A DNA stretch of 64,000 nt, from the NCBI GenBank assembly GCA_964036195.1, contig OZ038460.1, positions 10,233,504-10,297,503 of the forward strand. Direction: 5' to 3'. This document shows positions 3,740-64,000 of the stretch, piece after piece. The notes below the pieces were generated by a model. It made no database searches and was not told the DNA's origin. It worked only from the letters and a program-made list of their open reading frames with translations. Each line of letters begins with the position of its first letter. The stretch's first letter is position 1. This DNA comes from Sphaerolaimus hirsutus (lineage: Eukaryota > Nematoda > Chromadorea > Monhysterida > Sphaerolaimidae). Made by a program: the position numbers and the translations under genes.

Positions 3740-3827
3740 GTCATGCGTACGTTTGCCATTTCACTCGGCATTTTACATGACTTTTGACACTGCATGACAT
3801 TTTACAGGGTCTGAGGCCTGGGCCCAG

Positions 3828-15774: not shown

Positions 15775-16117
15775 CCGTATTTCTTGTAATAGAATGGCAA
15801 CCTCCAATAGAATGCCACATCCAATAGAATGGCAGGTAGAAGTCGCATTGGAAGAGTGCCAAAACACAAAAAATATTAGAAAAATGGGCGGTGAGAACAC
15901 CTGGTGTTCAAAACATGATTCAGAGGAGTTTTCACATTTAATTTGTTTGAATTGATGGTCTGATATCAAAATGTTTACGGTTCATTAAAAACACTATTTT
16001 CAAATGAAAAGCGTGTGAAAAAAGATTGATAAAAAAATAGAATAGCACCTCCATTAGAACAGCAGGTAAAAAGTTGACAAAAAGTAGCACATTGCTCTTC
16101 TATTAGAAGAAATACGG
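15775..16117. mobile_element. TA-flanked MITE, CCGTATTTCTTCTAATAGA subfamily
   Basis: Starts CCGTATTTCTTGTAATAGAA and ends TCTATTAGAAGAAATACGG, flanked by TA on both sides. Inner arms repeat AATAGAAT(G/A)GCA. Same subfamily as 17352-17468. Confidence 0.8.
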
Positions 16118-16536
16118 TATGCATCACATGCATTAACGAGCGGCAATGCTTGTGTGTCGTCATTGACACACAAATGTTGAATGTCCATTCAATACTAATT
16201 GATATTGTGCTTTATTCATGATTACTCATATTCCAACCCGTGTATTATGGAAGCACTGAATAATATAAATGTTTTACATTTACTAATGAGTTTTATCACT
16301 ATCTCGGGGTAGGCATTTGAATAGGTAGCTTATATTTACAAGCACGTGTTCTACGTTTATCCACATTTCCACATAATTTACAAAATACAGGAAGTAAAGT
16401 AAAGTCTGTAAGTAAAATATTTAGGCATCACACAAATGGAAGTGGTAAAATAATAAGAACAACTCTGACTATGCATTTTTGCTTGACCAACTAGACGGGA
16501 ACTTAAGTGCAGAACGATTTGTCTTTCCTTTTGCCT

Positions 16537-19500
16537 TCACGTCGCTCTTTCGACATCTGCGTTGATTAGCCAGAATTAATTAGATTTGGTCGCTTCAGAA
16601 GAAATGAACAACCCACCTGGAATCCGGGCGATCAATCGATCTGCAATTGGACGGGTTATTGAGCTGTCGCAATGCGGGATCGTCTGGATGAGTGCCAGAA
16701 TAATGAACAAAGCGTTGACCAAAAACTTACGGATTAGTAACGATGGCAGACAAAAATTCGTGGTAAAATTTTGACCTGTCAGATTATTTAAAACAGCCTT
16801 CAGTTTTGGATCAAAACTTATCATTAGAACGAGCATTTGATAGTAGTGATGGAAAAGCGCCATGAAAAATGGTGCTGGCACCCTTGGCGCCATTAAAGGG
16901 TGCCAGCGCCACGGCGCCATTCCATCACTATTTGACAGTACCACGGCCGAACTTATCATGAGAACTAGGTAGTTTTCGAATTTACGAATTTTCTAACTTT
17001 TACAAAACAAATCGCTTTGATGTGTTCTTCTCTGACAGTGGGTGTAAAGACACGAAAATGCCGAAATCATCCATTATCGAATTTTCCATTTTCCGTTTGC
17101 CGTCGTTATCCCAAACACATACCACCTCTTTCCTGGTCTGTGCCATTGTGCTGCGCCTGTCCGTCACTCGCATCAGCGCCGTTGTTGCAATGGCCGTTGC
17201 ACTGAACATTGGACTGTGACTTTCTGGCGCTGCTCTCATTGGTGTCGTTGTTGTCGCACGTGGACGCTTCCGAACTGGACGGGAACGGGTCGTACAGGTT
17301 GAATCTGCGTCGCAGTTTTGTTTTTGGTTGCTTCGACTTGTTATGACATTACCGTATTTCTTCTAATAGAACGGCAGCCTCCAATAGAACGGCACCTCCA
17401 ATAGAACAGCAGGTAAAAAAGTTGATGAAAAATATAGAACGGCGCTCTTCTATTAGAAGAAATACGGTATACCGTATTTCCTCGAAATACCTCCTTGAAT
17501 TAACCCCCCTCGAAATTCCCCCTTGAATTAACCTCCCATCGAAATACCCCAATGTTTTTCGAGCTGAGGAAAAAGTAGCCCCCTCCTCGTAATACCCTCT
17601 CCGACTGGAATAATGTACATCATGTATTTTATGCAATGTAAATACAGTATGTATTTATTGCCCTCTGAATCACTTTCCTCCCCCCGCTCAAATTTGGCTG
17701 GCGAAATAAAAAAACCCTGGGGGTATTTCGAGGAAATACGGTAGGTAGATTTCAAAGAGTGTGTCACACTTGTGTCCAAAATCGGTCTCGACGACCACGT
17801 TAGACTCGTCGTCGCTGTCCGCCTCGGGCGTGACGAACACCACCTCCATGTGCAGGTCGCCCTCCTGCGTGCCGCGTGCTCATATTAACTAGTTGTGGGA
17901 TCAAAAAAGTTTTGGAATCCTTTGCGCCAGAAAATGATCAGAATATGCGTCGAGAACATTACACACACTTTTCAAACTCAAATTTGTACATGGTCGGGCT
18001 GAAAAGTCCCCGGGCAGTGCTCGCCATTCGCGCTAGGGGTAAGCTACGTTTATAAAATTTTAACACGTTAATATATCAGGTGTTTTGAGTTTTCACCCAA
18101 AATTTCACCCCTCTAGCTCCACCCACTGCGGAACTGTGGGGGTTACAATTTCGGCCATTTTGTACTGATGTACAAATGGTGCTCTAGCTCAACGCTGCTT
18201 TAAGTTGTGATCATGAAACTTTGGCTAGTGTAAGCCACCAGTGTTGGCAATGTGCCAGCACTAACCAACAATAGCTATGATATCATAAGCCTAGTCCATA
18301 TTGCCATTACTGTCACTACTCTCACTACCAAATACATCATTCTGCCTCTACGGTTGGTCAATACAGGTTAATACAGGAGGAGTTTTTCATGCACACTGCT
18401 GTTGAACACAGGTAATATGTCCACTACAGATTAGTAATGAAACACAAATGAAATTTAATTGACATAATAATTTACTGCACATTTCAAAACAACATTAAAA
18501 TCACTGCAATACAACATGATCTCAGATGATCACCAAAAACATCCATCACAGTTCCCACGTTTCTTGCACATCACCCTGATCTGCATATTTATTTTACCTT
18601 AATAACAATGATGTTCATGAAAGTGTTGAATACTATCAGCACATTGAAAACACTGGTGGCTCACACTAGCCAAAGTTTCATGATCACAACTTAAAGCAGC
18701 GTTGAGCTAGAGCACCATTTGAACATCAGTACAAAATGACCGAAATTGTAACCCCCACAGTTCCGCAGTGGGTGGAGCTAGAGGGGTGAAATTTTGGGTG
18801 AAAACTCAGAACACCTGATATATTAACGTGTTAAAATTTTATAACCGTAGCTTACCCCTAGCGCGAATGGCGAGCACTGCCCGGGGACTTTTCGGCCCGA
18901 CCATGTAAATGTGTGTGTACAGGTGCCAGTCTAGACCCTGTAAAAGGCCCTGTAAAATGCCAAATGTGATGCAAAGTGTCAAAGGGCGTGAAAAATGCCC
19001 AGTAAAATGGCAAACGTATTTACGTTTGACATTTTACAGGGCATTTTACAGGGTCTGCGACTGCCCCCTGAAGCCCTATGTACAGATCCAGCGGCACGCG
19101 AATAGACTTCAGCCATGAAAAGTTCCTCAACTCACCTGTTTCGATAATATTTCCACCGCCTGTGCATGCTTGGCGTCGCGCAAGTCGACCCCGTTCACCT
19201 GCAGTATGGCATCGCCGACGTACAGCTGGCCGCAACGCTCGGCCGGCTGCCCCGGGTGAATCTCCGAGATGAGGATCGGCACCCCGTGTTCGCGGCCGCC
19301 CTGTGCATAGTGCTCTCTTCAGTCAGGTGCCATTACCAGACCCTGTGAAAGGCCCTGTAAAATGTCATGCAAAGTGTCAAAAGTCATGGAAAATGCCCTA
19401 CAAAATTGCAACCGAGTTGCCATTTTGCAGGGCATTTTCCATGACTTTCGACACTTTGCATGACATTTGCCATTTTCCACGGATTTTTACAGGGTCTGGG

Positions 19501-22500
19501 AGTGCGCCCAGATCAGTTTGTTGCACAGCACAGTTAAGCTGCGTTTAACACTGTCACGTGTGCCGACAAAAGTTTTTGAGTAAAGCGTCGTTTACACTGC
19601 ATTTTGTGCCGACAAAAAAAGAAGACAAAAAGTTTCATAATTCCACAATAAAGTTCCATATCTGCAAGACAAAGCAGTGAAGTATACTCACTAGTTGAGT
19701 GTACACACATGCCAATTTGCAGATAATTCGGGCATGTCGTTCAAGACTTAAAAACAAATTACACTTGTCGGTTCGGTTTTCGTGTTGAAACCGAACCGAC
19801 AAGTGTAATGTGCTTTTAACTATTGAACGACACACGCAAATTATCTGCAAATTGGCATGTGTGTACACTTGACTAGTGAGTATACTTCAGTGCCTTACCT
19901 TGCATATATGGAACTTAATTCCGTAATTATGGAACTTTTTCACTCGTTTTTTTGTCGGCACACGAAACCGTGTAAACGCCGCTTAACGAGGCTGCAAATA
20001 AGAAATGGAACCGGCAACCTGTGACGACAACAGAAAATGTCATCTCATTGTGTATTATTATGTCACATACCGTATTTCCTCGAAATACCCCCCCCCTCGA
20101 AATACCCCCCCTCAAAATAGACACTATGAACTTATAAACCCCCCCCCCCTCGAAATACCCCCCCCCCAAATTTAGTGTATAGAGAACGTAAATGACAAAG
20201 GCTGTGGTTTGTCATCCCGACAATGCAGAATACACGTTAAAAACGATGACTCTGTTATGTGAGAACAGTGTTTGTACGTCTACACACTTATAAATGTCTT
20301 TAGAGTCTTATAAATGGCGATTTTTGTTGCATTTTTCGACGTCTGCGTACGTTTCAGACTACATTTTAGTACTGGGATTTCAAAAAATTTCTGGCGAAAT
20401 AATAACCCCCCCCCCTCGAAATACCCCCCCCCCTCGTTTAACCCCCCCTCAAAATTCCCACTCTGAAACAATAAACCCCCCGGGGGTATTTCGAGGAAAT
20501 ACGGTAAATAATTATCCATACACAAAAAGATGACATTTGAAGAGATGTAAACGCAGCTTTAGAGACTGCGATGCGACCAACGATGGGTAAGTTCTCAAAA
20601 AAAAAACACTTTCTGTGTTTTGAGTTTTTCAAAAATGAATACCTGTGTTTTGAGTTTTTTTCTTGAAAAAAACTTGAGTAACTCTGTTTTTATTTCTGTG
20701 TTTTTTGTAAAAACTCAAGTTTTTCGAGTTTTTTCTAAAAAAACTTGAGTTTTTTCCAAAAAATTCGAGTTTTCCCACAAAAAATTTTGATTTACAGCAT
20801 TTCGATCTGGAAACAGTGGTTTTCTTATAAAATATTGGTTTGGCACATGTTTTAACCCCACATAACATTTGTGTATTCATTCAAGTGTCAGAAAAGTCCT
20901 TAAAAATGTCCACAATGAGGACATCACCATCACAACACCAGCAACAAAATGCCCAGAAACGACAATTTACGCAGTACTCCAAAATTCTTCAATGGATGTG
21001 CACTGTATGGAAGACTACGGAATTGATTTGAACTACAACTACCATATCACCTCGAAATACCCCCATGGGCATTATTATTTCGTCCAAAAGTTTTGTAAGG
21101 ATCATAGAAAATAGTAGGCATTTACATACCCAAAACAGGTTATAAATGCGTAAAAACAGGATATATTTGAAAAAAACATATAGTCAGCTACACAACCTAG
21201 TAAAGTCTATGTGTAGCTGCGATGCAAATAAGCAGTAATAAATACATCATGTACATTGGATACATGATGTACATCATCCCGGAGGGGGGTATTTCAAGGG
21301 GGCGGGACTTATTATTTCACCAGTCCATTTTGAGGGGAGTTAATTCAAGGGGGGTTTATTCAAGGTAATAAGGTATACTTAAATGTCAAAACTTAAATTG
21401 TCAAATCCACCATGAGATGTGCATGCCATCTTTAATTTCTTTTTTTGTACCATTATAAAATATGAATACATTATGTACATATTTACATACTATAGATGCT
21501 TATCTTGTTTAGTTTAACTGAATTAATGTGCATTCAACCACTTTGCTGAAAAAAACACAAAAACTCAAAAAACTTTTCTGTGTTTCGTGTTTCTGTGTTT
21601 CTGTGTTCTCCAAAAAAAACTCATTTGAGTTTTGAGTTTTTCAAAATTTATGAGTTTCCGTGTTTCTGTGTAAAACAAAAACACAGAAACTCGATGAGTT
21701 TCTGTGTTCAATTTCTGTGTTTTTTCCATCGTTGGATGCGACACTCACCGTGATGGATATGCCGAGGCCCTCGGTGACGTCTTTGTATAGAGTGACATTG
21801 CGCACAGGGCCTACTCCTTTCATTTTTCCAGTCAGCAACTGCGTTGTTGGGTTGCAGATGGTGACACGGCGTTAAAAAGAACCTTGATATTATGCTGAAA
21901 ATCCCCTGACAAGTCCCCGGAGGGTCTCATTTTGTGACTGGGAGATGTTTGAGGGGGTTTTTTCAAGTATTTTTAGTAAAGTTTTTCTTGTCACACTTTT
22001 CACGAGAGGGGTATTCCGTGGAAATACCTTATATTGATTACGAAATCGATCCAAAGTGTAATCAATCTATTTTGGTACCCTCTGCAAAAAATCTTATGCG
22101 AGGATTTGCAGTAAATAAAAAGAATGATGGAAAAGATAAAACGCACTTCGTGCATGATGGACATCGGACGGTAGTCATCGGGCGAACTTGTTCCATTCGT
22201 CTGTGTTTTGTAAGATTTTTTTATTAAAAAAAACGTGAACTGAGGCGGAACTGTAGCTGTATTGAGTATAGTAGGTATTCCATCATAGTGTTGTTTTTCG
22301 AAATTTCAAATTATTTTAGTTCCACATGACTTTACCTTTCTTTTTCGTAATCAACTAGAACATTTTAGTGAAATCAGCAATTTCACTGAACAATTTCGTT
22401 GATTTTTCATCGCTGTTACATTTATCTCTGTAAATATCATTTATTATCAAAAAATTATATACAGTGTTTACAAGAAAATTTGTAGACGTAAAAACATGCC

Positions 22501-25500
22501 AAGCAAAAACAGTGCTCGTGATGTTGTCTGAAGCGCCCATTGTGATCATACTCCAACACAAACGTAGGTAAAAAATGAAGAAAACTCGGGTATTCTCGGT
22601 ACACCTAAATACGCTTTCGCGCCTTTCATCACACCAACACTGACTCACGAACCTGCGGCAGAATACTTTGCGGCAGTGGCGCGCGCGCCAGTGAAGACCT
22701 TCCACGACAAGCTCGAATGACGGTCTTGTGTCTGTGAAGGTGTATCTCAGCCTCCAGCTGGTTCCACAGGCGGTCGTGCTCTGCGCCGCGCATGTCCCTG
22801 CCCAGCAGCTGTATCTGCTGTATGCGTCCGGCCAGCTCCTTGTCCAGGTACTTGGCGGCCAGCCTGGAGGCAATCCTGAACCCTGTTAAGAGCCCTGTAG
22901 AATGTCAAATGTTATGCAAAGTGTCTAAAGCCATGGAAACTGCCCTGCCAAATGGCAACCGAGTTGCCATTTTGCAGGGCATTTTCTATGACTTTTGACA
23001 CTTTGCGTGACATTTAACATTCTATACGGCACTTTACAGGGTCCGGGACTGGCACCTGGCGCCGTAGACTTCGTTCTGCATGGCGAGCACGGTCTGCCGC
23101 AGCTGGGCGTTCTCCCGACGCAAAAGGTCGCACTCGGCCTGCTGGCGCGCCGGCGGCAACAGGGCGCAACGGAACTCGTCGATGTCTTGATCCTGCCGCC
23201 ACAATGGATTTTTAGAAAATTTTTTTGGAATTTATTGGAATGGGTTTATTCATCTAACTGCACACAAAAAAGTATTGAGAAAAAAATATTTAGATCTGTT
23301 CAATCAAGTGAAGAATTACGTCAGTTTACTTTACACATATTACTTATCGTTTCACTTGTAAAATCGGTGAAAAATCAAAGTAAAGTAAATCGATCAAGGT
23401 GACAAAAACACCGATTCCGCATGTTGACAAGTAAAATTTCAAGTCAAGAATAAAGTCGGCTGACAATAGTAAAGGCACGGGTAAAGTCAAATGACAATAA
23501 AATGAGAAAAACATATAGGTAGGTACTTACACCTTTTGCTTGTCAATTTGCGAAATTGACTCCCGGCAAAATTTGGCAAATATCAACCGTTGTGTAAAAT
23601 GAATGTCATCATTCAAGGCATGTTACATTTCACCTTACATGACAGATGTTTGATCATTTGGATCATAGTTCCGGGTGCGAAATCGGCCACAAATTCTTTT
23701 GGTTTGTTCTATTCTATTCAGTAAAAATCCTATTATCAAAAATCCTATTATCAAAAATCCTATCATCCTATTCACTAAAAATCCTATACTAAAAATCCAA
23801 TAAAATTCACTGACCAGTTTCTTCTTGATCATGTCGCTCTCGTGCGGCGCCAGGGTCTTGGCGTGCACCTGACACTGCAGCGCGTGCACTTGCGTGATCA
23901 GCCGGCGGCCCTCCTTCTCCGACTCGACCCGCGCCGCGCGGCACTGCGCCAACTCGGCCCGCAGCGACACCAGCTCCGACTGCGAAAAATCACGGCGGTA
24001 TTATGTTATCTTTGATAACAGATTTGTTTTGAGTATTTGTGTCTAGTTAAGAGCAGTGTAAACAAAAAGCATATCATGTAATTACATACTATGATCTGGT
24101 TCTTTGGGGATGTAGAAGTTGATTACACCTGAAACTCTCCAGAAAACTCCTGAAAGATTTTCTCCTGAAACATTAGCCACAAAAAACTTTGTTGTAAGTT
24201 TTGTTTGTTGATCTACCGTATACTCGGATGACATTACACCGTACATTTTTCGGGAGGAAACACTCCATCATGACGTCATCACTTTCTTTAATTCTGGCAT
24301 TTAGCGTTTCTTTTCTTTGTTTCTTTTTCTTTTTGCGATTTTGATTCATAAGTCTTCAGTTGGCCGTCTGCCAGCCGAAGACATAAATCATATCTATTTG
24401 TAGAGTATCATGTCTGCCGAGTATACCTAGGTAAGGCAGAAATTTTTTGGACTGCCAATTAACCACCAGAACCCCCTGTATTCGACGATATACAGAACAA
24501 TCGTGCGTTCAATTTATGCCAGTGCTTTTTGTGAAAGCTGGGGCCAGTTCCGCAAAATGAGAAGTGAGAAGTGAAATGGCGAAGGCGAAGTCAAAGCGCA
24601 AAGGCGAAGTGAAATGGCAAGTGAATTGAGAAGGAAATTGGCAAAATACAAGGGAAATTACTTTTTATATTTATTTTTTTACTTCGCCTTTGCCTTTTCA
24701 CTTGTCACTTCTCATTTTGCGGAACTGGCCCCTGTTTACAGAAGTTTTATTGTATTTTTTACTACACTTTTTTCGAAAGTATGTGTTTGTCTCTAATGGC
24801 AAAAAAAATTCACAACTTCACAACATCTCCATAGGAGTCTTCACTCCAATCCCTTGTTTCATTATCCTTGTGGATTTGAAGTTCGAGTAAACAAGAGAAT
24901 GTCAATTTCAATGGTTGCCCACTTCATGCAGCGCCCTGCAGCGAGACAAAGAACGCACTTGTTTTCCCATGTCGCCGACAATTCAAATCGAACAGGCTTC
25001 ACCGACGAACCATAACTCAACATTTGGTGACTTTCTCGCACCCTGACATAAATATAGAGGCAATCCCGCGAGAAATGCAATACAATACAAAGAGTGCATG
25101 CAATGCGTGCGCCGCCCCAACAGATCAAAGCCGGTCTAATGGCGGCAGATAGCCGCTTCAAAGAAGCTTCTGTTTGATTTAGCACAGTGGAGAAAAACCC
25201 ACGGGTGCACTAGCGCTCTTCATGTGCAAAATTACGCATGCATCGTTTCTTGGCGAGTTGCAGTGCACTGCATCCTTCGCTGTGCGTTGCTCTGCTCTAT
25301 GCTCTTGTGTAATTGCCAAATTTGGCCTATAAAGCGGCGTGGTGTACCTAGTTGCGTAATGTTTAATATCCGTGATAAATTTGACAGCTGAGACTGCTAC
25401 GGGAAATGAGAAACGGTGAAATATATTAAAAAAAACGGCCGCCCGAAATGGGAAATTTTTCCGCACACTCTGTATCCAAGCTAAATTGGCCTGAAAAGAT

Positions 25501-28500
25501 TGATTGCAGTGCGGTACAAATAAACGTCTCCTTCGAGCAGTGACGTGCGCCGTCGAGAATGGGGAAGTGGAAAAAACACACGTCACAAATCAAGAAAGAT
25601 TTAATATGTGCTGGGTGGCTTCACCATAAATCAAAATATGCGCTGCCGAACGAAAAAGCTGCATCATATCCAAACGATCATAGTTGTTAAAACGTATTTA
25701 CAGTTTACTCGAGAAATACGTATACTCGAGTACTGAGTAAATACGTTTATGTTTCCTCTGGAAAAAAATACCCGTACTCACCTTCACACATACTTTTTGA
25801 AAGTACGCGAGTGCAGAAATCGTAATGAAGAAAAATTAATGGGGTGCAGAAAGAGCAAAAACTAATCAAACGAATTTAAATGGCTGCAAAAATGGCAGCG
25901 GCAACGATCGAAGTGTTGGCGTCGCGCCATGATTTTATTTCGCATGTGATCAATATCGATTTAGGCATGTGCACGTTTTAGGATTTGTATTTTTCATGTG
26001 TCTCGTCGTTGCCGCCACGCGTAGAGTTATGGGTATTTAAGGAAATGTCATGGTGTTTCTGGGCAGTTCAGTCTGATTTCGGTGGAGGGATTTTTCACGC
26101 AGTCAAAATGAAGTTTTATCACATTTGACTCTTTGGACTCGTGAACTCAGAAGGAATTGACTATCAGTTTCCTCCGCCGATCAAGTCCTCTCGCTGCTTG
26201 ACCGTCAGGGCGCTCATTCTCCACTTGCTCGGAGCTGAGCGGCTTGAATCCGTGTGCTCGCCATATCAGATCATTGAGCGGCAAGCCACGGAGCTCAGTA
26301 GCGGGGCCACCTCACACTTGACAGTGAGACGCCCCGTGAGCGCACCTGAGCGGTGAGCGGCAGGAGGGATTGAGCGGCCATTGAGCGGCAGCGATTCGAG
26401 TGGCAAGTGAGCGCCACTTTTCATCGGTTGTCGAGTCGCGCTGCACGCTCATCTCGAGCGACTCAACTGGTGATCAGTCAGCTCAACTGGTGAGCGAGTC
26501 GCACATGGTGATCGTACCGCGCTCATCGAGCGCCCATCAGAAACTCAGCAGTGAGCGGCGGGATCAAAGGCCCGACACTCGCCGCGACCGGGTCCACAGA
26601 ATAAAGCGGCCCGGTAGGGAGCACCGGTCCCAACAGAGAAAGGGAGCGCGGCTCAAGACATCGAGCGGCAGGCTACTCAATAGTAGCAAAGCCACTCGCG
26701 ACTCACGCCGCTCAGTCCAACAGAGCGGGGTGGAGGCGGCACAGAGAGCCGCGACAGGGAGATCGGGTGCCACTTGCGGCGCCCATTCAGCAGAAGAGCA
26801 CCAGACAGGAGGAAAATGCCACAAGCCAAACAGACTACCCAGGAAGAGTTGAAGCTCAGAGTGGCACAATGGACAAGAGACCACAACCGAGTGGCACTCG
26901 TGGGGGTGTTCAACCAGCTGAGCGCGTACAGAAAAGACGACTGGCCGGTGTGCTCAAACCCAGCACAGGCCAGCTACTCAGCATTGGGGAAAAAGTTGCT
27001 CATAATGGTTGACAATTACTTTAGAGAACAGCAGGCGAGCTACTTTCCATTTAAGAACCCAGAAGTGGCCGACTCAGATGACTCAGAGGGAGGGGCGGAG
27101 GATGATTTACAAACCCCGCCCCCAGGGCCAGCGAGCGGCCCATCCTTTGACGAGTTGCTCCAGAGGCTTGAGCTGAAAATGGAGCAGCGCATGGAGTTGA
27201 ATCTGTGCCAGCAAAGAACAGACATGCAACAGGAAATTCGGAAACTAGCAGAACAACTGTCGGTGCAACAAAACTCAGGGTCACCGAGCGTCATGTTGGA
27301 CGCCATCAGAAACGTGAAAAGAAGCCAGTCGCCCATTATACAGCCGAATTCAAGGATCGGCGGGGCGCAAAGCAGCAGCTCGTGTGGCAGGCGATCAGCC
27401 ACAGACGAACGAGTGGCTACCCTGAGGAGGGGCTCACTGATCGAGCACATCGCTGAGTACGTGGAGACAATCACGCTCAGCCCACTGGACAACCTGCAGC
27501 CACTACAAGACGCACTTCAACAAATCGGCAGCAAGGACCGCATGGGCGCAGGACAAGTGGCAAATGCAGCCGGAAAACAATCCAAATTTGATGGCGACCC
27601 CACTGGGAGCGCGGGGCCATTCAAATATTGGATCCATGTGGTGGCGCTCCAGGCATTGGCGGTCCCAGAGTCGCACCAGCAGCTGTTTTGGACAAATGTG
27701 TTTTCACAGTGCTTGGTGGGAGAGGCCCAACAGCGCTACAAAACCATTCGAGTGGACAGAAGACACGATATCCTATACGTGTTGGACAAGCTCACACACA
27801 TGTACAAAGACGATCGCCGGCTGTATTGCGTGGCGGATTGGTACAACATCACCGCCAAAGCAGATGAGTCCGTGGCGGATGTCCATGCCTGTCTGTGCAC
27901 AAATTTTCACCATGTGAGCGAAACCATGGAGGACGACGAGCGCGAGCGCATGATTGGGGACAAGCTGTTCACTGAAGCACCGAAGATTGTCCCGATCACA
28001 AGCCTATACGTTTGGAGAGAGCGCTGGCAAGAGCACAGGTGCTCACTAGACATGGCAGTCGCCAAAATGGATAGCGCCCGTACAGAGCTCCAACAAGCGC
28101 AAGATTCAAGGAGAGAGGAGCAAAGGAAAAAGCAAGCAAACGAGCGCCCCGCGGCGTGGCAAACAGACGGGCGTCCAGGGAGCACAGAGGCAGAACAGAG
28201 TAAAACAGAACCAGGAGTCAACGCAACATTCAATCCCGAGACTCACACTGGGCCATGGTGCACGCACCACCTGCACCAGAGACCAATGCCCCACGCGAGG
28301 GGCCAGTGCTTCATGGACAGTAATTCCTCAGTGTTCCAGAGGGACAGAGCCCAGAACATCAAACAGAACCTGGCCCGACAGAGCAAGAGTGAAGAAGACG
28401 CAAAAAAACACATGTCCCAGAAATGCAAAGAAATGGGCATTGAGCTGAACAAAGAAGACCTGCCATCCAGCAGAGCCACGCAAAACGCAGCTGAAAACAG

Positions 28501-31500
28501 CCACTTGAAAACAGCCGCAGCCCAATGAAGATTGGGATTGGAATGAAGAGACCCCAGATGAACTCCTGGCTGAGTGGTGCCCCATGGCATCACGGGCTGA
28601 CAGCGAGTGCCACTGCACACACGCGTCAGACCCAATGGCCACAATCCACTTCATGGGGGTCCCGATCGAGGGCCACATAGACAGGGGGTGCAATATTGGG
28701 ATTTTCATCGAAGACTCAGTTCTGGAAGAAGTGTGGAAAAAAGCGGGCGCCAAAGCGGAGGGAGAGAGGGCCAAGTTCAAACCCTACCCCTACGCACAAG
28801 TTCGGACCTCGGGGATCGCTATCCTCAGTGAGTACCTCCGAGTGTACGATATGGAAATCATGCACACAACCCCAGATGGGCAGCTACGGAAAGACACGCT
28901 GCCCGCAGTGGTCAAACTGATGAAGTATTTGCCCGCCTCGGACCCATTGCTATTGGGTCGGGCAGCCATCTGGGGGAAATTGAAAATAATCTTGGACGCT
29001 CACCAGGAGCTCAAACGACTCGAGCGCGTGTTCAAGGAAGGGTCGGCTCAAGGCACCAGGGCCCCTGGGGAAAGCTATCGCACCAGGGACATCCGGACGA
29101 AATACAAAATTGTGATTCCCGCCCATGGGCAGAAGCAGATTCTGGTCAAGACCAAAAAATCGGCCAGAACAGAGCCCCCACAGGGACCCGCAGCATACAC
29201 ATTGGATCCCTACGAACGCACGAAAGAAGGGGGGTTGCAGGGATTCGTGGAGGGAATCACATGCGACACATTTTTCAGCACTTCAGCAGAGGGGGCCACA
29301 GAGGCGGCATTCAGCATCTGCGCAGTAAACACCATGGGGTATGATCAATTTATTCCACCACAGACCAAGGTGGCTGAGCTGTTTCCAGTCGGCCGAGTGT
29401 TGCTCCCCGAGACTTCAGAGGAACCATGCAGTGCAGAAACGGTGCAGCTCCCGCAGCCCCCACCCAAAGGGGGAGCCGGAGCCCCAGGGCCGGCGCTCAG
29501 TGAGCAGCAACTCCAGGAGGTGTGGGGGTGGTTCTTGAAAGACAGTCAAAACGCCCTACCCGAGGGGTTGAAAGAGAAATTCATGGAGCTACTGCAGAGC
29601 AGGAGGGATTTTTTTAGTCTGACCGAGTATGATATTGGGGAAACACAAGTACTGGAGCACAAAATTGCACTAATCCTGGGGGCGGAACCAGTGAAATGCG
29701 CAGCTCGTTTTGAGTCCACCCAAGCGAGCTTTTGTATGGTGAACAGTAGAAGAGATGCTGAAAAAGAAACTGATCGTCCCATCATCATCCCCTTGGGCGT
29801 TCCCTCTGGTAATCGTCCCGAAAGGGAAGGACGATTACAGGTTGTGCTTGGACTTTCGCAAGCTCAACAAGCTAACCGTGAGGGATGCTTACCCACTGCC
29901 ACGGATCGCGGACATCTTCAAGCAATTGGGCAATAGAGCGATTTTTTCAACAATGGACGCGAGTTTTGGGTACTACAATGTAACCATCTCGGACCCAGCA
30001 ACCCGAGACATGGTCACCTTTGTATGCAGTAGGGGTCAATTCTCTTACACCCGCATGCCGCTGGGGCTAAAAAACGCGGGAGCGAGTTTCCAGCGGCTCA
30101 TGGACTGCATCCTGACAGGGCTGAACCAGGAACCCGAGCGCCCAAACTATTTCGCCTACATCGACGATGTGCTGGTGACAAGCAGCACCCCCGAGGAGCA
30201 CTTAGAGCACCTGCGAGGGCTGTTCGACAGGCTACAATGGGCAGGGATCCGACTCAAACCCTAGAAATGCTCGTTTTTCTGCTCACAAGTGAAGTTCGTA
30301 GGGTTTGAAGTGAGCAAAGATGGCATCTCCCCAAAAAGAAGCAACGTGGCAGCCATCTTGGAGATGCCCACGCCCACGACAAAACAAGCGATTAAAACGT
30401 TCCTGGAGAAGGCCGGCTATTTTAGCCAGCATATCCCCGGGTTTCACCGCCTAGCAGCCCCACTGAACGAGCTAGCTAAAGGGAAATACCGAGTTAATGG
30501 GGCGGACCCAATTCCACCGTTCGACGAGTGGTCAGACGAAGCTAAAGAAGCACTGCGAGTCCTCAAACATCGCCTAAGCACCGCCCCGGTGCTGGCCCAC
30601 CCTGACCGCAACCGGTGCTTTTATTTGTACACGGACGCATGCGACTACGGACTGGGGGCGGTACTGATGCAGTTAGACAAAGAGGACGGCGAGTTGCTGC
30701 GCCCCGTCTCATTTGTGTCCAAGAAACTGCCCACCACCCATAAGAACTGGTCGGTGGTCGAGAAGGAAGCGCTGGCCTGCACATGGGCCCTGGACCGATT
30801 AGGGGATTTCATAGATGGACAAAAAGTAGTGCTGAGAACCGACCACAAAGCACTCGTCAGCGCGCTAACAAAGCCGGCTCGGGGGAAAATTGAGCGGTGG
30901 ACTCAGCAATGGGCAATGAAACTATCCCTGAAAGACTTATCGATTGAGTACTGCCCGGGCAAGAGCAACGTGGTGGCAGACTCATTGAGCCGCAACCCAA
31001 TCAATGACCCGGATATGGCCGCTTTCGAGCGAGCCAGCGAGTGCATCAAAATACCCTTGGACAAGTTGAGCGCTCACATGGCAGCTGGCACACAGCCAGG
31101 GCAGATAGACTGGCTGACCAAGCAGAAACAATGCCTCAAGTGTACCGAAATTGCCAAAGGATTGGAACAGGGAAGTGTAGGGAAGGGTACCTTTCGCACT
31201 CGGAAGGGCCTGATTGAGTTGCAAGGGGTAAGGGGCTGGGTACCCCTAATCCCACAAAAATGGCAGAACACGCTGATCAAGGAAGCCCATGCAGGGCGAA
31301 CAGGGGCACATGGCGGGGTCGAACGCACCTTACAGCGCATTTGCGAGTGCGGGGCGTGGCCGGGCATGAGGGAAGAAATCAAAAATTTTGTGCAGACATG
31401 CCAAATATGCCAGGTCACTAAAGACACCCAGCGGACCTGTATCAGTCCGCTGTTTCCAGTCGGGCCGGGCACCTGGCCATGGATCAAAATTGCAGCCGAC

Positions 31501-34500
31501 ACCACCCCCATGCCCGAGCATCGGGGTTTCAAACATCTGCTAGTCATCGTCGATTATCTTACGAAACCCCCCTACGAAACTTGACAGGGAAACATATGGC
31601 AGAAACAGTAGAAAAGAGGCTAATTTTGACATTCAGGCCACCAGCAGAGTTAGTGTCAGACAATGGCCCAGAATTCGCAAATAAAGACATGCGTCAGCTG
31701 GCGGCAAAGTGGGTTTTTTCCATGCGATACACAACGCCCTACCATTCAAGGGCAAATGGACTAGCGGAAAGGGCTATCAGGAGCATAGAACAGCTGACAC
31801 GACAATGGTCGATTTCCAATGCAGGGTCGCGAGACTGGCCAAGGGCCCTCCCAGAGCTTTGGCTACGCGCAAACACGGCATATAACCAAGATGTGGCGCA
31901 TGCGCCTTTTGAACTACTTTTCGGTTACACGCTGTCATTGCTGGGGGGGGGGGTGGGGCAGCTCGAGGAAAATAGAAAACCCGAATCACCATACAAAAAA
32001 GACCCCAACAGTGAGAGGCATGATTCGCCCAGTCAAAACACCCGGTCCAAAACAGTTCTGAAAAGCCTGGCAACTCAAATTCCACAATTGGCACAGCGCC
32101 AGGGAGAGATGGGGAAATTGTGGAAAAAAGCACAACAATGCCTAGACAATGCGCAGAAAAGATACAAAGCCCAATTTGACAAAAAAGCCAGATTTCAAAT
32201 AAGAATGGGGGACCAAGTTTTTATCAAACGAAAATGGGGTTTATCTGTGGAGAGAAAGCTGCAACCACTGTGCAGTGGCCCGTATGAAGTGGTAGGGGTA
32301 GATAGATCAGTCGCCATGATCGATATCGATGGCGAAATCCAGTGGGTCCCGATGGACACACTCGTTCCGGGAACGAGAGAAAAAGAAAGAACAACGGGTG
32401 CCGTCGTTTTATTGGCATGCTGCCAGAAAGTGTCTGAAAGAATGGATAAGAAGTCTACCCGGCACCGCAGCCGCAGCACGAGCGGGCGGCACTGGAATTT
32501 GGGCGGGGGGCACACTAGACGGCCAAGCGCCCAGACATCCGCGGTAAGAAATCTGGGAAATAGCCAACTTTTCTCACCGGCCGATCAAGTTCATCTTGAG
32601 AATGTCGAGTTCCTCTCCCCACCGCAGCAGAAAGCAGAAGACATTCGCATTTGGTTGGCGGCGGCCCATCGCGTGCGGCAGCGCGGTTTTGCTTCAGAGC
32701 AAGAGAAGGTCGACAATGAGCGATTGATCATGCAGATCGCTAAAGAGGCCGCGCTTTACAGCGGCAGTGACTCGAAGGTCACCACAGTGGAGGTAGATGG
32801 AGACAGGTCATCAGTTTACGTGACGACAGTGCGCCGGGGGTCCGGGCAGCGCAAGGTTTTTGTGCCGCCCCCGCAGAACAGAGACTCCACGCCAAATGCC
32901 GACCGCATGGCTGCGGCCGAGGATGTCGATGAAAAACCAGGTGAGGGGAAAAGGGGTCCTGGGATAGTAAAAGAGAGAGTGGGGGCCCTGGCGAGGGGCC
33001 GCCGAGCCACAGATTCGTGTTTTCCGGGTGGCCCGAGTGTACTCGATGCTCGAGTGCATTTTTTCGCGACGGAGTTACCAAAATACATCTATCTATTTCG
33101 CGACCGGTTCGACGCCACGTTCGGCGCCATGTTTGGCACCCTGCCCGGTTTCGGCGCCATGCTCGGCGCCATGAACGGCGGCGCCGTCATTCAACGTTTG
33201 CCCAAAGCGCCTCGCAATTATGTCAACTGTGCGGCCGCAGATTTGTCAGACCCATGGACGCCGGCGCCCACCACGTTGGACGACTACATGGGCACGGCCG
33301 ACGACTTCAAAACAATGGCGCACGCACGCTATCACATACGCCAGCTTGAAGAGCGGAATTTTTCGCTCAATAGGGCATGGGAACGCCTGCGGGTGCGCCC
33401 CAAGGAGGCAAAACCGCTGCTGCGTGTGTGCTTGAATGATGAGGCGGACCTGCGTAAAGAGTTTGAAGACCTTAGGGCCCGCTCGCACGCTCAAGAGGCT
33501 GAGCTGCGAACCGAAAATTTCCGATTGCAGACAGAGATTGATTTAGAGCGAGCGCAGGTAGCGCGGTCCGCGGACCGGCTCGCGGCGCTCGCCGACGCGA
33601 ACGAGGCCCTGTCCGCCCAACTGCTTGACTTTAGGGGTCTGGCAAAAAGCATGTTAAGCAAGTGGCACGACAGTCAGTGCCGGTTGGCGGCCGCCATGGG
33701 CGGGAGCCCCCCGCCGCTCACCGCCGTGGCCCATTGCATTAGCATGCGCCAGTCCGTGCAGCATGTGTCCGGGTTGGCGGCGGGCGGGTCCGACCCCACC
33801 GCGGGGTTGGACTTGTCACTGCTGGCGTCGCCTGTGATGCCCAAAGTCGCGCAGGTGGATGCACGTCGCCTGCCTTGGTCGCGCCAGTTTTGCTTGACGC
33901 AGTCGACGGGTTGTGTCCCGTTTTTTCCATTTACTACCGTGCCGCCCATGCTGTCCCCGTTGAAACCCCACCGCGCTCACTTCGGCACCGACCCCCCCGA
34001 GGTCCTTTCGCCGGTGCGTGAGCCCAGCCGGGGTCATGACCACACAATTTCCGAAACGCCGCCGCCGCTTGTCACATAAGCGTCGCTGATTTGTCTATGT
34101 TTTTTAGGTTTGCGTTTTACCCGGAGATGGAGTTTTATGCATTTGTTTGGTATTTATTTTATCCTATTTGTATTTATATTTTGACTGTTTACGGGTTATT
34201 TTTCCTGATACGGGTATTTTTCATCAAAGCGGGTTTTTTTTCATTTTTGCAAATTCTCACTGACCCTACTCATGATTGTGTGGTTTTCCGTTGGCCCCGT
34301 ACCGTTGTCAAGGGGGGGGATGTTGGCGTCGCGCCATGATTTTATTTCGCATGTGATCAATATCGATTTAGGCATGTGCACGTTTTAGGATTTGTATTTT
34401 TCATGCGTCTCGTCGTTGCCGCCACGCGTAGAGTTACGGGTATTTAAGGAAATGTCATGGTGTTTCTGGGCAGTTCAGTCTGATTTCGGTGGAGGGATTT

Positions 34501-35685
34501 TTCACGCAGTCAAAATGAAGTTTTATCACATTTGACTCTTTGGACTCGTGAACTCAGAAGGAATTGACTATCAGTTTCCTCCGCCGATCAAGTCCTCTCG
34601 CTGCTTGACCGTCAGGGCGCTCATTCTCCACTTGCTCGGAGCTGAGCGGCTTGAATCCGTGTGCTCGCCATATCAGATCATTGAGCGGCAAGCCACGGAG
34701 CTCAGTAGCGGGGCCACCTCACACTTGACAGTGAGACGCCCCGTGAGCGCACCTGAGCGGTGAGCGGCAGGAGGGATTGAGCGGCCATTGAGCGGCAGCG
34801 ATTCGAGTGGCAAGTGAGCGCCACTTTTCATCGGTTGTCGAGTCGCGCTGCGCGCTCATCTCGAGCGACTCAACTGAGCGAGTCGCACAGAAGTTGAGAT
34901 GGGTAGGAAACGCGATGACCCTTGCGTTTACCTACTTTCACTCACTTCTAGGTTTTCTTAGGTACAAAATCGAAGAAAAAGTACCTGCTTTTATTTACCC
35001 TTTCCTTGAGTAAAAATACTGGTATTTACGAATACTCACCTGATACGCAGTATAAAAAATATACTTAACGTGTTCTGTACTCAGGGGTGAGTAAAAATAA
35101 AGTACTTTACGATTACGTTTACTTTGAAAAGGTTCAATACTCTTGGCAAGGCTCAGTCTCAGTACCTACGTGCTTGACTGAAAACGTCTTTACTGAAATC
35201 GTGCTTTACGTCTACAAAACGCAACCGTGCGACGTGCGCACCTGCCACGTCGCCAAAAGACACAGCTGACTAACTTCAAGTTTGATGTTGTTCTGGAAAA
35301 TCGTCTGCGACTTATGCACCAGTTGCGCGAAAGCAGCGCTGAGACCGGTCATTTTCTGTCGGCCATCGAATGTCAAATCGGCCTGGTCCGCGTCCACCTG
35401 CAAAAACGCAGCGAGGACCGTAATTTTTTTTGGATCAAATGTTCGATTTCTTCGCTCTCAAACCTCGCCCAGCAATAAATCCAAGTCCACGAAAGCTCTG
35501 TCGAACTCCTTCTCCAGCGTGTCGAGCCAGGCGAACACCGGCGACGAAGTATAAGCGACCGGCTTTTGGCAGTTCCGGCCCGCAGTGGCCGCCGCCGCGG
35601 CGCTGCTATTGCTGCCGCTCGGACCCGCCGCAGACGCTGATTTTGACATGTCGCTGGCCGCTGCGGGGTTATTTTGTGACGACAT
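16537..35685 (-). CDS. GOPC: Golgi-associated PDZ and coiled-coil protein (GOPC/PIST/CAL)
   Basis: Exons: 35464-35685 (ATG at 35683-35685), 35275-35397, 23815-23979, 23056-23192, 22653-22863, 21749-21838, 19136-19300, 17770-17864, 17123-17304, and a weak terminal candidate 16537-16556 (TGA). Phases agree throughout; about 469 residues against 462 in human. Seen: [18 protein letters not shown], the coiled coil of exons 2-5 with [18 protein letters not shown] and QLLGRDM, then one PDZ domain (GLGISIT ligand loop, [38 protein letters not shown]). Known role: a Golgi scaffold binding C-terminal PDZ motifs, syntaxin-6 and Rho/Rab GTPases, and steering membrane cargo such as CFTR. Exon 5 could also end at GTGAGT (22649), but phase and a conserved spacing of 22 residues favour 22653. 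Intron 4 is a transposon; intron 2 holds an LTR element. Confidence 0.94.
16841..16930. mobile_element. Miniature hAT-type MITE, TAGTGATGGAAAAGCGCC family
   Basis: A 90-bp palindrome with ends TAGTGATGGAAAAGCGCC and CCATCACTA. Flanks share TTTGA only, so the duplication is not clean. Minimal form of 40137-40999. Confidence 0.7.
17352..17468. mobile_element. TA-flanked MITE, CCGTATTTCTTCTAATAGA subfamily, in GOPC intron 8
   Basis: 117-bp palindrome, CCGTATTTCTTCTAATAGAA to its inverse, flanked by TA at 17350-17351 and 17469-17470. It directly abuts the next element. Confidence 0.85.
17473..17741. mobile_element. TA-flanked MITE, CCGTATTTCCTCGAA subfamily, in GOPC intron 8
   Basis: Starts CCGTATTTCCTCGAAATACC, ends GGTATTTCGAGGAAATACGG, TA on both sides (17471-17472, 17742-17743). 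With the preceding unit it makes up about 85% of the 465-bp intron. Confidence 0.85.
17989..18905. mobile_element. DNA transposon relic with long (about 260 bp) inverted ends, TA duplication
   Basis: Left arm from 17989 (CATGGTCGGGCTGAAAAGTC) and right arm to 18905 are about 95% identical inverted copies; shared blocks include AGTCCCCGGGCAGTGCTCGC and AACACGTTAATATATCAGGT. Flanked by TA (17987-17988, 18906-18907), which fits the Tc1/mariner group. The 350-bp middle codes for nothing recognisable. In GOPC intron 7. Confidence 0.85.
18923..19067. mobile_element. Harbinger-like palindromic MITE (CWG family) in GOPC intron 7
   Basis: Starts GTGCCAGTCTAGACCCTG after CAG (18920-18922); the right side ends CAGGGTCTGCGACTGCCCC before CTG (19068-19070). 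The interior repeats GCCCTGTAAAATG in both orientations. It begins about 68 bp from exon 7. Confidence 0.7.
19327..19508. mobile_element. Harbinger-like palindromic MITE (CWG family) in GOPC intron 6
   Basis: Starts GTGCCATTACCAGACCCTG after CAG (19324-19326) and ends CAGGGTCTGGGAGTGCGCC before CAG (19509-19511). Arms share GGCATTTTACAGGG-type blocks around a centre near 19420. It begins 26 bp from exon 7, on the acceptor side. Confidence 0.8.
19583..19986. repeat. 400-bp foldback element, TTAA-flanked type
   Basis: Palindrome with arms starting GCGTCGTTTACAC and sharing TTTGTGCCGACAAAAAAA, AGTATACTCACTAGTTGA and CCAATTTGCAGATAATT. The right end meets TTAA, the left end TAAA. A partial outer copy of the same end is at 19528-19575 and 20545-20561. 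A second copy is at 52013-52409. Confidence 0.75.
20070..20504. mobile_element. TA-flanked MITE, CCGTATTTCCTCGAA family, in GOPC intron 6
   Basis: CCGTATTTCCTCGAAATACC to its inverse, TA at 20068-20069 and 20505-20506. Longest copy here, with repeated CTCGAAATACCCCC units near both ends. Confidence 0.8.
20578..21734. mobile_element. hAT-type MITE (CAACGATGG family) beside GOPC exon 6
   Basis: Ends CAACGATGG and CCATCGTTG, perfect 8-bp duplication GATGCGAC at 20570-20577 and 21735-21742. End-proximal arrays of CTCAAAAACACAGAAA-like repeats; the middle holds remains of a TA-flanked element (about 21040-21378). The right duplication ends four bases from the GT of the exon 6 donor. Confidence 0.9.
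22867..23055 (-). mobile_element. Harbinger-like MITE that constitutes GOPC intron 4 (introner candidate)
   Basis: On the coding strand exon 4 ends GGCGCCAG and is followed at once by the element end GTGCCAGTCCCGGACCCTG; the other end, CAGGGTTCAGGATTGCCTC, is followed by CAG and then exon 5. The arms are inverted copies around an axis near 22965. CAG occurs on both sides, as a 3-bp target duplication: the first copy is exon sequence, the second supplies the acceptor AG, and the element supplies the donor GT. Removing 22864-23055 restores VYGARLAAKY exactly. Harbinger elements with CWG duplications are known; assignment here is by ends and duplication only. Confidence 0.85.
24541..24731. mobile_element. 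Harbinger-like MITE (CWG family, TTCCGCAA subfamily) in GOPC intron 2
   Basis: Starts GGGGCCAGTTCCGCAAAATG and ends GCGGAACTGGCCC, flanked by CTG at 24538-24540 and 24732-24734. Arms carry GAAGTGAAATGGC motifs. One extra G at the left end leaves the exact edge uncertain. Confidence 0.75.
24735..25909. other. GOPC intron 2, left of the LTR element: no gene seen
   Basis: 24860-25560 is moderately GC-rich with short frames on both strands and no recognised similarity. 25683-25810 is a relic of the GTTGTTAAAA hAT-type family. Nothing else was recognised. Confidence 0.4.
25914..26505 (+). repeat. 5' LTR of the gypsy element
   Basis: 592 bp. Compared with the 3' LTR it has three substitutions and 23 additional bases near its 3' end. 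The extra segment contains TGGTGATC, the same eight bases that start the primer site, suggesting slippage during reverse transcription. Promoter elements are listed separately. Confidence 0.93.
26034..26074 (+). promoter_or_regulatory. Putative LTR promoter (TATA-like box and initiator)
   Basis: TATTTAA at 26034-26040 is followed about 30 bases later by TTCAGTCT (26067-26074), matching a TCAGT initiator. The Gag-only element has an equivalent pair at 48786-48817. Inferred from spacing and consensus only. Confidence 0.5.
26506..26523 (+). other. Primer binding site of the gypsy element
   Basis: TGGTGATCGTACCGCGCT directly follows the 5' LTR. The first bases TGG pair with a tRNA CCA end. The tRNA is not identified; the Gag-only element starts its site with the same TGGTGA. 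Confidence 0.6.
26816..28528 (+). CDS. gag: Gag protein of the gypsy element
   Basis: 570 residues from ATG 26816 (context AAAATGCC); the frame is open 14 codons further up to 26774. The middle third carries the capsid-like core ([57 protein letters not shown]), which is shared with the Gag-only element. Near the end a knuckle-like [18 protein letters not shown] has Cys-x2-His and His-x4-Cys spacing instead of the usual CCHC. Gag forms the particle and packages RNA in the cytoplasm. The downstream pol frame is +1 relative to gag and overlaps its last 20 bases. Confidence 0.9.
   Translation: MPQAKQTTQEELKLRVAQWTRDHNRVALVGVFNQLSAYRKDDWPVCSNPAQASYSALGKKLLIMVDNYFREQQASYFPFKNPEVADSDDSEGGAEDDLQTPPPGPASGPSFDELLQRLELKMEQRMELNLCQQRTDMQQEIRKLAEQLSVQQNSGSPSVMLDAIRNVKRSQSPIIQPNSRIGGAQSSSSCGRRSATDERVATLRRGSLIEHIAEYVETITLSPLDNLQPLQDALQQIGSKDRMGAGQVANAAGKQSKFDGDPTGSAGPFKYWIHVVALQALAVPESHQQLFWTNVFSQCLVGEAQQRYKTIRVDRRHDILYVLDKLTHMYKDDRRLYCVADWYNITAKADESVADVHACLCTNFHHVSETMEDDERERMIGDKLFTEAPKIVPITSLYVWRERWQEHRCSLDMAVAKMDSARTELQQAQDSRREEQRKKQANERPAAWQTDGRPGSTEAEQSKTEPGVNATFNPETHTGPWCTHHLHQRPMPHARGQCFMDSNSSVFQRDRAQNIKQNLARQSKSEEDAKKHMSQKCKEMGIELNKEDLPSSRATQNAAENSHLKTAAAQ
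28509..34079 (+). pseudogene. pol: Pol (PR-RT-RNase H-integrase) with C-terminal extension, disrupted
   Basis: Coding shifts between frames: protease and linker 28509-29938, RT from about 29743, RNase H and integrase to about 31565, and the rest to 34079. Breaks: a frame change near 29743, an in-frame TAG at 30262-30264 right after the RT palm, and a frame change near the C run at 31565-31570. Seen: protease-like [12 protein letters not shown] with Arg where Thr/Ser is usual; RT YIDDVL and LDFRKLN; RNase [14 protein letters not shown] and TDHKAL; integrase His-His-Cys-Cys zinc finger (31285-31420), VSDNGPEF and a downstream Glu of the DDE triad, and a GPY-type end. Sequencing errors cannot be excluded as the cause of the breaks. 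Confidence 0.88.
32395..34079 (+). other. Unrecognised 560-residue extension fused to integrase
   Basis: The integrase frame stays open for about 1.68 kb past the GPY-like end. The first part is basic and low-complexity. Then come a short segment ([18 protein letters not shown]), a Met/Gly/Ala-rich repeat ([18 protein letters not shown]), a coiled-coil-like stretch around 33320-33650 ([15 protein letters not shown] onward), and a Pro-rich tail. No envelope features, membrane segment or chromodomain was seen. A frame this long without a stop suggests selection. Function unknown. Confidence 0.7.
34311..34320 (+). other. Polypurine tract of the gypsy element
   Basis: AGGGGGGGGA lies immediately before the 3' LTR, the expected primer for plus-strand DNA synthesis. 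Confidence 0.8.
34321..34889 (+). repeat. 3' LTR of the gypsy element
   Basis: 569 bp, TGTTGG to CGCACA, followed by the target duplication GAAG. Lacks the 23-base segment of the 5' LTR. Confidence 0.93.
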
Positions 35686-36837
35686 GATGAGAGTTTTTTT
35701 GAAGCAACTTCAAACTGCCAACTCCAGCCTCATAAAGGTAAAAATGGGCCGACTTATCGCACCGTGGAGATTGCACAAGCTGTGCACCATCAGCCAGACT
35801 CCGTTGGGCACGAGCACCGGTTCGGCGGCGCTGTGCAGCACGAGCAGCGGCGCCCCGCCGCCCGACTTGAACTTTGACGCGCGCACACCTCTGTTCAGTA
35901 TGCTAGCGATATTGGTTCTACATTTCGCGTGCGCCGTTTGTTTCAGAGCCATTGTTCCAGCAGCTCAAAAGTGTAAACACGAAATGGAGGACAGTGGCCG
36001 AGCCGCCGCGGCGGTGGGCAAAACCCATCGGGATATGCAAAAGCTCGGCCGGTTGAACACGAAATGCTCCATCACGGCGCCGCCGCCGTACGCTCGTCGT
36101 TCATGCGGCGGCGGCGCGGCGGCGCGACGGCCGCGCGACAATCTGATGCGGCCGCGACGGCGGCACGGATGGGCCGCCGGAAACAATTGTGGGCCGAGTG
36201 CGCGCTTTGCGCAAAGTTGCACGTTTTGTGCCGCGAGACCATCTTACGTGGACGTTAAAGCCACCCAGGCGTGGTCTAATGATGACCATAGGGGTTGGAC
36301 TTTAGGGTTACGCGGTGTCAAGAGCATGTTCAGAAGACATTAGTTACCTATTTGGTTTGTCGGTTACCGATTCACGAGGCACCGGGGACCGACGTACAAG
36401 GCTCGATACCGGAGTGGCATCATGCAACATTGCAACGACGCTGAAATTGCTATTCTGACTGCGCTTTTTCCCCAATGCTCATCTGTCATTGTTTGACAAA
36501 CTGAGTGGATTGCACAAAGATGAACAACGTGTTTTTTTTGGAAGAAATTATGTAGCAGAGTTGTTTGAAGTAAAAGTAGTAATGAAGACGCAAACAATTG
36601 GACTGATTACCGAAACACTGAAAACGTGAATTAAAAAATTAATACTCCGGAAAACAAAGAAACAAATGAAACTGGAAAATAGTTTTGGCTGTAGAACGTT
36701 ACTTAGGTAAAGTACTTTGGAAAACAAACGTAAAAGGAAACGCTTTCAAGACTTCTACTCAAGATATGGAGGACACGTAGGTAGGACATGTAAATGCAAC
36801 GCAGTATTTATACATATATTTACCTACTTTTCAAGTA

Positions 36838-37168
36838 CCGTATTTGCTTGAATAGTTCCCCCCTTAAATAATTCCCCCCTCGAATAATCCCCACCTGTAA
36901 GACGAGTGAGGAAATAATAATTCCCCCCCTCGAATAATCCCCCCCCTTTAAAGATTTGATTCATTTGTTCTACCTAGTTTTAACAAAAATGACACGTTAT
37001 TGTGTTTATAAGGTATGTTTCGAGAAATGAGTTGACGGAAACATGCTTAAAAATTTTGACGAAATAATAATTCCCCCCTTGAATAATTCCCCCTCCTCGA
37101 ATAGTTCCCCCCTCAAAAATGTCTGACGAAATAATAATCCCCCAGGGGGATTATTCAAGCAAATACGG
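36838..37168. mobile_element. TA-flanked MITE, CCGTATTTGCTTGAATA subfamily
   Basis: CCGTATTTGCTTGAATAGTT to its inverse, TA at 36836-36837 and 37169-37170. Arms contain repeated CGAATAATTCCCCCC units. Same subfamily as 61661-61916. Confidence 0.8.
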
Positions 37169-55863: not shown

Positions 55864-56010
55864 GTACCACTTCCAGACCCTGTAAAATGGCATGCAGTGT
55901 TAAAAGTCTGTAAAAATCACTGCTAAATGAAAAAAATTGTTTGCCATTTTACCAGGCAATTTACAGACTTGTAGTTGCATGACATTTTACTTTTACAGGG
56001 TTCCCCTTGG
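55864..56010. mobile_element. Harbinger-like palindromic MITE (CWG family), diverged right end
   Basis: Starts GTACCACTTCCAGACCCTG after CTG (55861-55863); the right arm ends TTTTACAGGGTTCCCCTTGG. A second CTG is not visible. Arms carry GGCATGCAG and TGCATGACATTTTAC. Confidence 0.55.

Positions 56011-58953: not shown

Positions 58954-64000
<5,047 letters not shown>

Follow-up and report, generated by a model that had tools for sequence, protein, structure and literature searches.

Intron 4 of the GOPC gene in the nematode Sphaerolaimus hirsutus is very probably an introner, a non-autonomous, hairpin-forming DNA transposon (MITE) that would have landed at a CCAGG site in a GOPC exon. This reading, made from the DNA sequence, is strongly supported by the presence of the same element exactly between the in-frame coding halves of unrelated genes. 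The origin of new spliceosomal introns is a long-standing question. In a nematode genome where one element is present thousands of times, and where a sizeable fraction of the sampled copies have exactly the shape of an intron in a coding gene, the process can be measured in an animal: insertion target, selection on orientation and age are all countable here.

GOPC and its fourth intron

The window, i.e. the whole stretch of 64,000 nucleotides that was analysed, carries a gene that is identified as GOPC by its PDZ domain, the best matches of which are solved GOPC PDZ domains. GOPC-named relatives of this gene were found across many animal groups, with the top 19 (P0001-P0019) all from nematodes and the best of them at 68%. 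The numbering of the intron as the fourth agrees with the exon map obtained by tblastn.

The intron occupies positions 22864-23055 on the minus strand and is 192 bases long, comprising, as read from the sequence, a 189-bp near-palindromic MITE and one CAG (Table 1). On the minus strand, with ^ marking the junctions, its boundaries read GGCGCCAG^GTGCCAGTCCCGG...GGATTGCCTC CAG^GCTGGCC, and the exon/intron joins lie at 23056/23055 and 22864/22863. The start of the intron after GGCGCCAG is also given as GTGCCAGTCCC, and the termini of the element family to which it belongs are GTGCCAGTCCC and GGGGCAGTCCC. The original prediction described this intron as a MITE plus one copy of a CAG target duplication, with a GT donor provided by the element and an AG acceptor provided by the duplicated CAG. 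Both descriptions are borne out by the minus-strand sequence, in which 189 and 3 bases make up the intron, CAG stands on both sides and the canonical GT and AG are both present.

The inverted repeat arms of the GOPC element are 82% complementary and separated by a spacer of 3 nt. The predicted RNA fold has a free energy of -113.6 kcal/mol (z -15.1), with none of 200 shuffles equally stable. This copy diverges by 12.7% from the majority consensus of its family, corresponding to 87.3% identity.

It had also been claimed that splicing restores a conserved stretch of GOPC exactly, and this holds for the relatives compared. The junction, GAR^LAAKYL, is gap-free in all 118 relatives that span 12 residues to either side of it, among 120 listed of 748 found, and the conserved 10-residue junction peptide (letters not shown) is read exactly in 92 of these 118.

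Table 1. Positions of the candidate GOPC introner, its flanking exons and further copies of the element in the window.
Feature	Position	Strand	Basis
GOPC exon 5' of the introner (DQDIDEFR...NEVYGA-AG)	23056..23192	-	tblastn with GOPC relatives, boundaries by eye
GOPC exon 3' of the introner (G-LAAKYLD...RACRG)	22699..22863	-	tblastn; 3' boundary inferred from AAG^GTCTTC
MITE (candidate introner), intron body, 189 bp, palindromic	22867..23055	-	begins GTGCCAGTCC, ends GGATTGCCTC
Upstream CAG of target duplication, last three bases of upstream exon	23056..23058	-	sequence read
Downstream CAG of target duplication, supplies acceptor AG	22864..22866	-	sequence read
Donor GT, from element end	23054..23055	-	sequence read
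Hairpin/palindrome, arm one	22862..22959	.	inverted repeat search, RNA fold
Hairpin/palindrome, arm two	22963..23060	.	inverted repeat search, RNA fold
Second copy, CAG/CAG, within later GOPC intron, not exonic	19327..19508	+	similarity to intron 4 element
Third copy, shorter, within another GOPC intron	18922..19067	+	
Diverged element copy	55864..56003	+	
Short diverged element copy	60642..60741	+	
Diverged element copy	63134..63329	.	
Element copy fragment	3750..3806	.	

An abundant family with a CWG target

The element was searched for in the 348-Mb assembly, composed of 762 contigs. A search for the element end flanked by CAG had been proposed with the original prediction, and the left end in this context has 4601+4502 = 9103 matches at up to 3 mismatches, with 0 for a reversed-pattern control. 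Followed in the same manner, the left end with CTG has 4843+4751 matches (control 0), although the two sets overlap, their patterns being one base apart. Roughly four in ten element ends carry CTG. Exact right ends across the genome number 1387 with CAG versus 883 with CTG, while perfect left ends on contigs C1-C3, counted manually among the matches listed, number 86 versus 58 (p 0.024).

A majority consensus built from 116 copies forms a 189-bp palindrome, the two ends of which differ chiefly in reading GTGCC at the 5' end versus GGGGC in the 3' arm (reverse complement), and the median identity of copies to this consensus is 92.6%. The copies show the features of MITEs in that they are short, non-coding and present in high number, with terminal inverted repeats and a target duplication. 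Of 71 delimited copies, some of which were selected for a CAG end, 55 are flanked by CAG or CTG on either side; the pairs are 36 CAG/CAG, 8 CTG/CTG, 7 CTG/CAG and 4 CAG/CTG, giving the same triplet on both sides in 44. The target is CCWGG-like, since C precedes the left triplet in 47 of the 71 and G follows the right one in 39. A GT start is found in 69 of the 71, a figure reached partly by construction because the copies were oriented on their GT-like end.

Certain pairs of near-identical segments share the position of the element (L045/L046, L011/L031, L022/L032, L062/L063, L099/L100, L101/L102 and L110/L111), pointing to recent segmental duplications or uncollapsed haplotypes.

Copies within coding exons

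Three samples of copies were compiled. The first consists of the 39 places best matching the GOPC intron (L001-L039), the second of 40 perfect left ends with CAG (L041-L080) and the third of 40 with CTG (L081-L120), the latter two each taking the 20 places that head the listing for contig C1 and the 20 that head it for contig C2, with content playing no part. Initial codon scoring used 150-base windows that overran exon ends. It classed both flanks as coding in 10 of 87 copies, with strand and phase agreeing in 8 of the 10, and was superseded by scoring anchored at the junction. With the latter, both flanks are coding-like in 40 of the 87 copies. Strand and phase are concordant in 28 of these 40, compared with a mean of 14.0 and a maximum of 24 in 10,000 permutations, a result which is partly circular as the codon table was trained on the same 87 copies. 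The 28 comprise 26 sense and 2 antisense copies (L004 and L028), and L028 has a GTGCC-type end at both sides.

A stricter test covered 70 of the 80 loci in the CAG and CTG sets, 10 having been dropped for lack of a second end (4 CAG, 6 CTG). It places 19 of the 70 copies inside coding exons with the frame restored and leaves 51 uncalled. Because L045 and L046, both among the 19, are near-identical, the independent exonic copies number 18. All 19 are in sense orientation, with GT at the donor, and none is antisense (p 3.8e-6 under equal orientation). The left-CAG set contributes 11 of 36, all with a right CAG, and this half of the test shares the partial circularity of the trained table. The left-CTG set, which lay outside the training so that its calls are not circular, contributes 8 of 34, of which 6 have a right CTG and 2 a right CAG. 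With frameshifted controls, 3 and 0 of 36 copies were called exonic in the CAG set and 0 and 0 of 34 in the CTG set, the 3 calls arising from a right flank shifted by one base. The exonic share is 6 of 17 for CTG/CTG copies versus 11 of 24 for CAG/CAG copies (Fisher p 0.54). Extended to all left ends, a proportion of 19 in 70 would imply at least about 2,000 exonic introns, a number extrapolated from well-preserved copies.

Conserved protein domains read through a number of the junctions. Twenty joined products, hand-picked by eye, were sent to Pfam, and a domain extends across the junction in 9 of them. No domain covers the junction in the other 11 of these 20, 8 having no match and 3 (L018, L037, L083) having matches that fall short of it. 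Among copies with an AG acceptor, a CTE_SPB4 domain spans the junction in DDX18 (L012), where the alignment to solved DDX18 is also gap-free, a Filament domain does so in L020 and Glyco_transf_7C in a galactosyltransferase (L022). AMP-binding spans it in L091, a CTG/CAG copy with an AG acceptor, in a match that contains profile gaps. Among copies that lack AG, Oscp1 covers the junction in OSCP1 (L081), Xan_ur_permease covers it in an SLC23A1-like permease (L085), which aligns without gaps to solved SLC23A1, and IFT70 (L108) is gap-free through the junction against solved IFT70. Calpain_III lies over the junction in L090 at 20.1 bits, just below the Pfam cut-off of 21. Two zinc-finger genes without AG, L033:338-524 (CTG) and L024 (CGG), likewise have Pfam matches over the junction; in L033 the match (79-105) begins two residues before the junction and the finger spacing across it was judged by eye.

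In two copies, L024:1501-1689 and L037:1502-1690, the downstream duplication is CGG, so that neither AG nor TG closes the intron, and L024 still restores its zinc finger.

Similar introns thus reach both splice boundaries, as placed by frame and homology, at unrelated gene positions. The 19 of 70 exonic copies, all sense and with the frame restored, together with the domains and solved structures that run through the junctions, argue for an introner family over a MITE lying in an old intron. The inserted element has a duplicated 3-bp CWG on its two sides and contributes GT at one end, while the second copy of CWG makes up the 3' end of the intron; taking out the element plus one CWG therefore restores the exon exactly. 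The spliceosome would presumably remove the element from the RNA, while antisense insertions, having GG at the donor side, would be purged by selection. The donor, CWG^GTGCC, is a weak match to the usual donor, and this counts against the introner explanation. The further claim of the original prediction, that the CWG target and GT end together guarantee a spliceable insertion, fails, as an antisense element starts with GG and a CTG target gives TG, not AG.

Copies without an AG acceptor

An acceptor AG is absent from 6 of the 19 exonic copies, which end in CTG and include those in OSCP1, SLC23A1 and IFT70; exonic CTG/CTG copies (6 of 17) had not been foreseen in the original prediction. These six would need a GT-TG intron. 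A tentative proposal, given nearly an even chance, is that the introns end in C-W-G regardless of W and thereby form a large class of constitutive GT-TG introns, enabled by the palindromic hairpin, in a host that is otherwise GT-AG. If so, a CWG-targeting introner would be freed from its main limit, namely that only sense insertions at CAG are spliceable. True GT-TG splicing of the CTG copies would furthermore offer a natural experiment on the spliceosome's requirements at the 3' site and on whether RNA folding can replace AG.

Folding of 20 exonic copies (the 19 and GOPC) leaves exactly 4 nt free at the 5' side and 7 nt at the 3' side in 16 of them. In 18 of the 20 an ACAG precedes the 3' end by 19 nt, with that of L055 being 31 nt away and L099 having none, and the nearest ACAG is paired within the predicted stem in 19 of the 20. 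The predicted hairpin, which in most exonic copies buries the upstream AG and leaves the CWG tail unpaired, suggests how TG could serve. It would conceal TTTTACAG, 19 nt upstream, from the second splicing step, so that the unpaired CCCCWG tail becomes the site used and the buried TTTTACAG is used, at most, for first recognition. At CTG targets the intron may then, with less assurance, leave as GT-TG.

Human TG 3' sites function solely with an AG at most 28 nt away, and no constitutive TG site was found, according to the available part of PMC2374985. The TG part of the explanation conflicts with these human data. Given the 28 nt limit, the AG and TG of most copies lie within the distance that works in human, with the AG held in a stem. 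The elements resemble the human U2 TG sites in having an AG nearby, whereas TG in human is an alternative partner of an AG site and here would be the main site of an intron class (PMC2374985, available part).

Somewhat below an even chance is given to the alternative that exonic copies without AG (CTG/CTG and CGG) join to the next downstream AG with a few residues lost, or that they are very young insertions or lie in dead genes. In 5 of the 6 exonic CTG/CTG copies the first AG further downstream keeps the frame, but that of L099 does not, and the residues that would be lost elsewhere are ones that align to their families. They amount to 19 in IFT70, aligned gap-free, to 11 in SLC23A1, aligned without a gap and with 4 of the 11 identical, and to MTMACK in OSCP1, which falls inside the Oscp1 match. 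The AG-less copies are 4-8.5% from the family consensus, and hence not brand new, yet their frames are open. A preference for AG, or some selection for it, fits the excess of CAG over CTG at right ends (1387 vs 883) and the mixed pairs of the stricter-test set, in which a right CAG stands beside a left CTG in 8 of 34 copies and a right CTG beside a left CAG in 1 of 36. Both imbalances favour use of a downstream AG, as do the other GOPC acceptors, all six of those read being AG. Set against them, the exonic share is about the same for CTG/CTG as for CAG/CAG copies (6 of 17, 11 of 24), whereas the stricter test yielded no exonic copy in antisense.

Alternative origins of the GOPC intron

It is very unlikely that a MITE landed in an old GOPC intron of which the remainder was lost, the fit to the splice sites being secondary. 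Copies of the element do occupy ordinary introns, two of them in GOPC itself, but in intron 4 the two exon ends coincide precisely with the CAG duplication, leaving no residual intron sequence, and an equally exact fit recurs in unrelated genes. The window site presumably corresponds to residue 204 of human GOPC. A human splice junction a few codons downstream would favour an old intron, FIG exon 3 ending at residue 209 versus 204 (PMC3017127, available part). If residue 209 is numbered in the 454-aa form, however, the human junction would fall at 217 of the long form, 13 codons off, where the window gene has no intron. The numbering of GOPC/FIG exons disagrees between the available parts of PMC3017127 and PMC8568855. 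An old intron at GAR^LAAKYL was also sought by way of human fusion breakpoints and gave no coincidence, residue 209 being 5 codons further along when numbered in the long form and 13 when numbered in the 454-aa form, though human GOPC may have an additional intron at 204.

Removal without the spliceosome, whether by cutting the RNA behind each CWG and ligating it in an IRE1/RtcB-like manner or by excising the DNA in somatic cells, is equally improbable. In its favour are the CWG^ at either boundary, the predicted folding of the RNA into a long hairpin and the restoration of the frame by CAG, CTG and CGG copies alike, but the sense bias, with GT at the donor side in 19 of 19 exonic copies of the stricter test and 26 of 28 in the first, counts against it because neither such mechanism needs orientation. 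XBP1 is an example of IRE1/RtcB-like cleavage and RNA ligation.

Relation to known introners and transposons

Copy numbers per genome in published introner families run from 5 to above 2,000, and Introners were found in two animal groups only, copepods being named (Gozashti et al. 2022, PMC9860276, available part). By its sequence features the element works like an introner that brings one splice site itself and obtains the other from the duplicated target. As with the TIR/TSD Introners of that survey, similar introns derived from a DNA transposon are present at many positions, one splice site would be carried and the other supplied by the target duplication, and the restored frame parallels the unchanged length of spliced mRNA in most families (PMC9860276). 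Unlike the Introners described in the available part of PMC9860276, the element has a nematode host, a 3-bp CWG duplication, a near-perfect palindrome and some exonic copies that would need a TG acceptor, the last of these being a possible feature. The word "nematode" is absent from the available text of the survey (PMC9860276). Among the matches listed (15 of 70) there was no nematode introner paper, and a literature search for introners combined with Harbinger and terminal inverted found none. The authors of the introner survey have a later study, which was not among the matches listed.

By its CWG duplication the element resembles the NuwaI group of PHIS (PIF/Harbinger-ISL2EU-Spy) transposons, which have a 5'-CWG-3' target duplication and occur mainly in animals (PMC4482050, available part). 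The shared feature is seen here as CAG or CTG on both sides in 55 of the 71 delimited copies. The element forms candidate introns, whereas intron formation is not described for NuwaI in the available part of PMC4482050. An autonomous NuwaI/PHIS partner would have the same ends together with a DDE transposase and a Myb/SANT protein. The Harbinger-type transposase PF13359 has at least 163 genomic matches (e.g. L121) and, because many score identically, this family is probably young. The PF13359 copy that was read has apparently small, ordinary GT-AG introns, and within this single stretch of 1451 bases no ends of the introner element were found.

Another animal with many introns outside the GT/AG rule is Fritillaria borealis, which has a duplicated U2AF and breaks the rule in 95% of its introns, and for which introner transposons are named as one possible origin of weak sites (PMC13326754, available part). 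Unlike in Fritillaria borealis, the departures here are seen in introner copies only, the six other GOPC acceptors being AG.

Further copies and neighbouring sequence in the window

Apart from intron 4, the window holds the six further copies or fragments of the element given in Table 1. Minus-strand translations of positions 16000-20700 contain a recurrent peptide-like motif (YRISSKYP..., YRISSN...), probably from another repeat family. Positions 26000-40000 form a G+C-rich block, with 50-58% per 2 kb against 37-46% to the left, which overlaps the long intron 2 of GOPC, carries minus-strand ORFs of up to ~159 codons as far as 32000 and is possibly a large mobile element or a nested gene.
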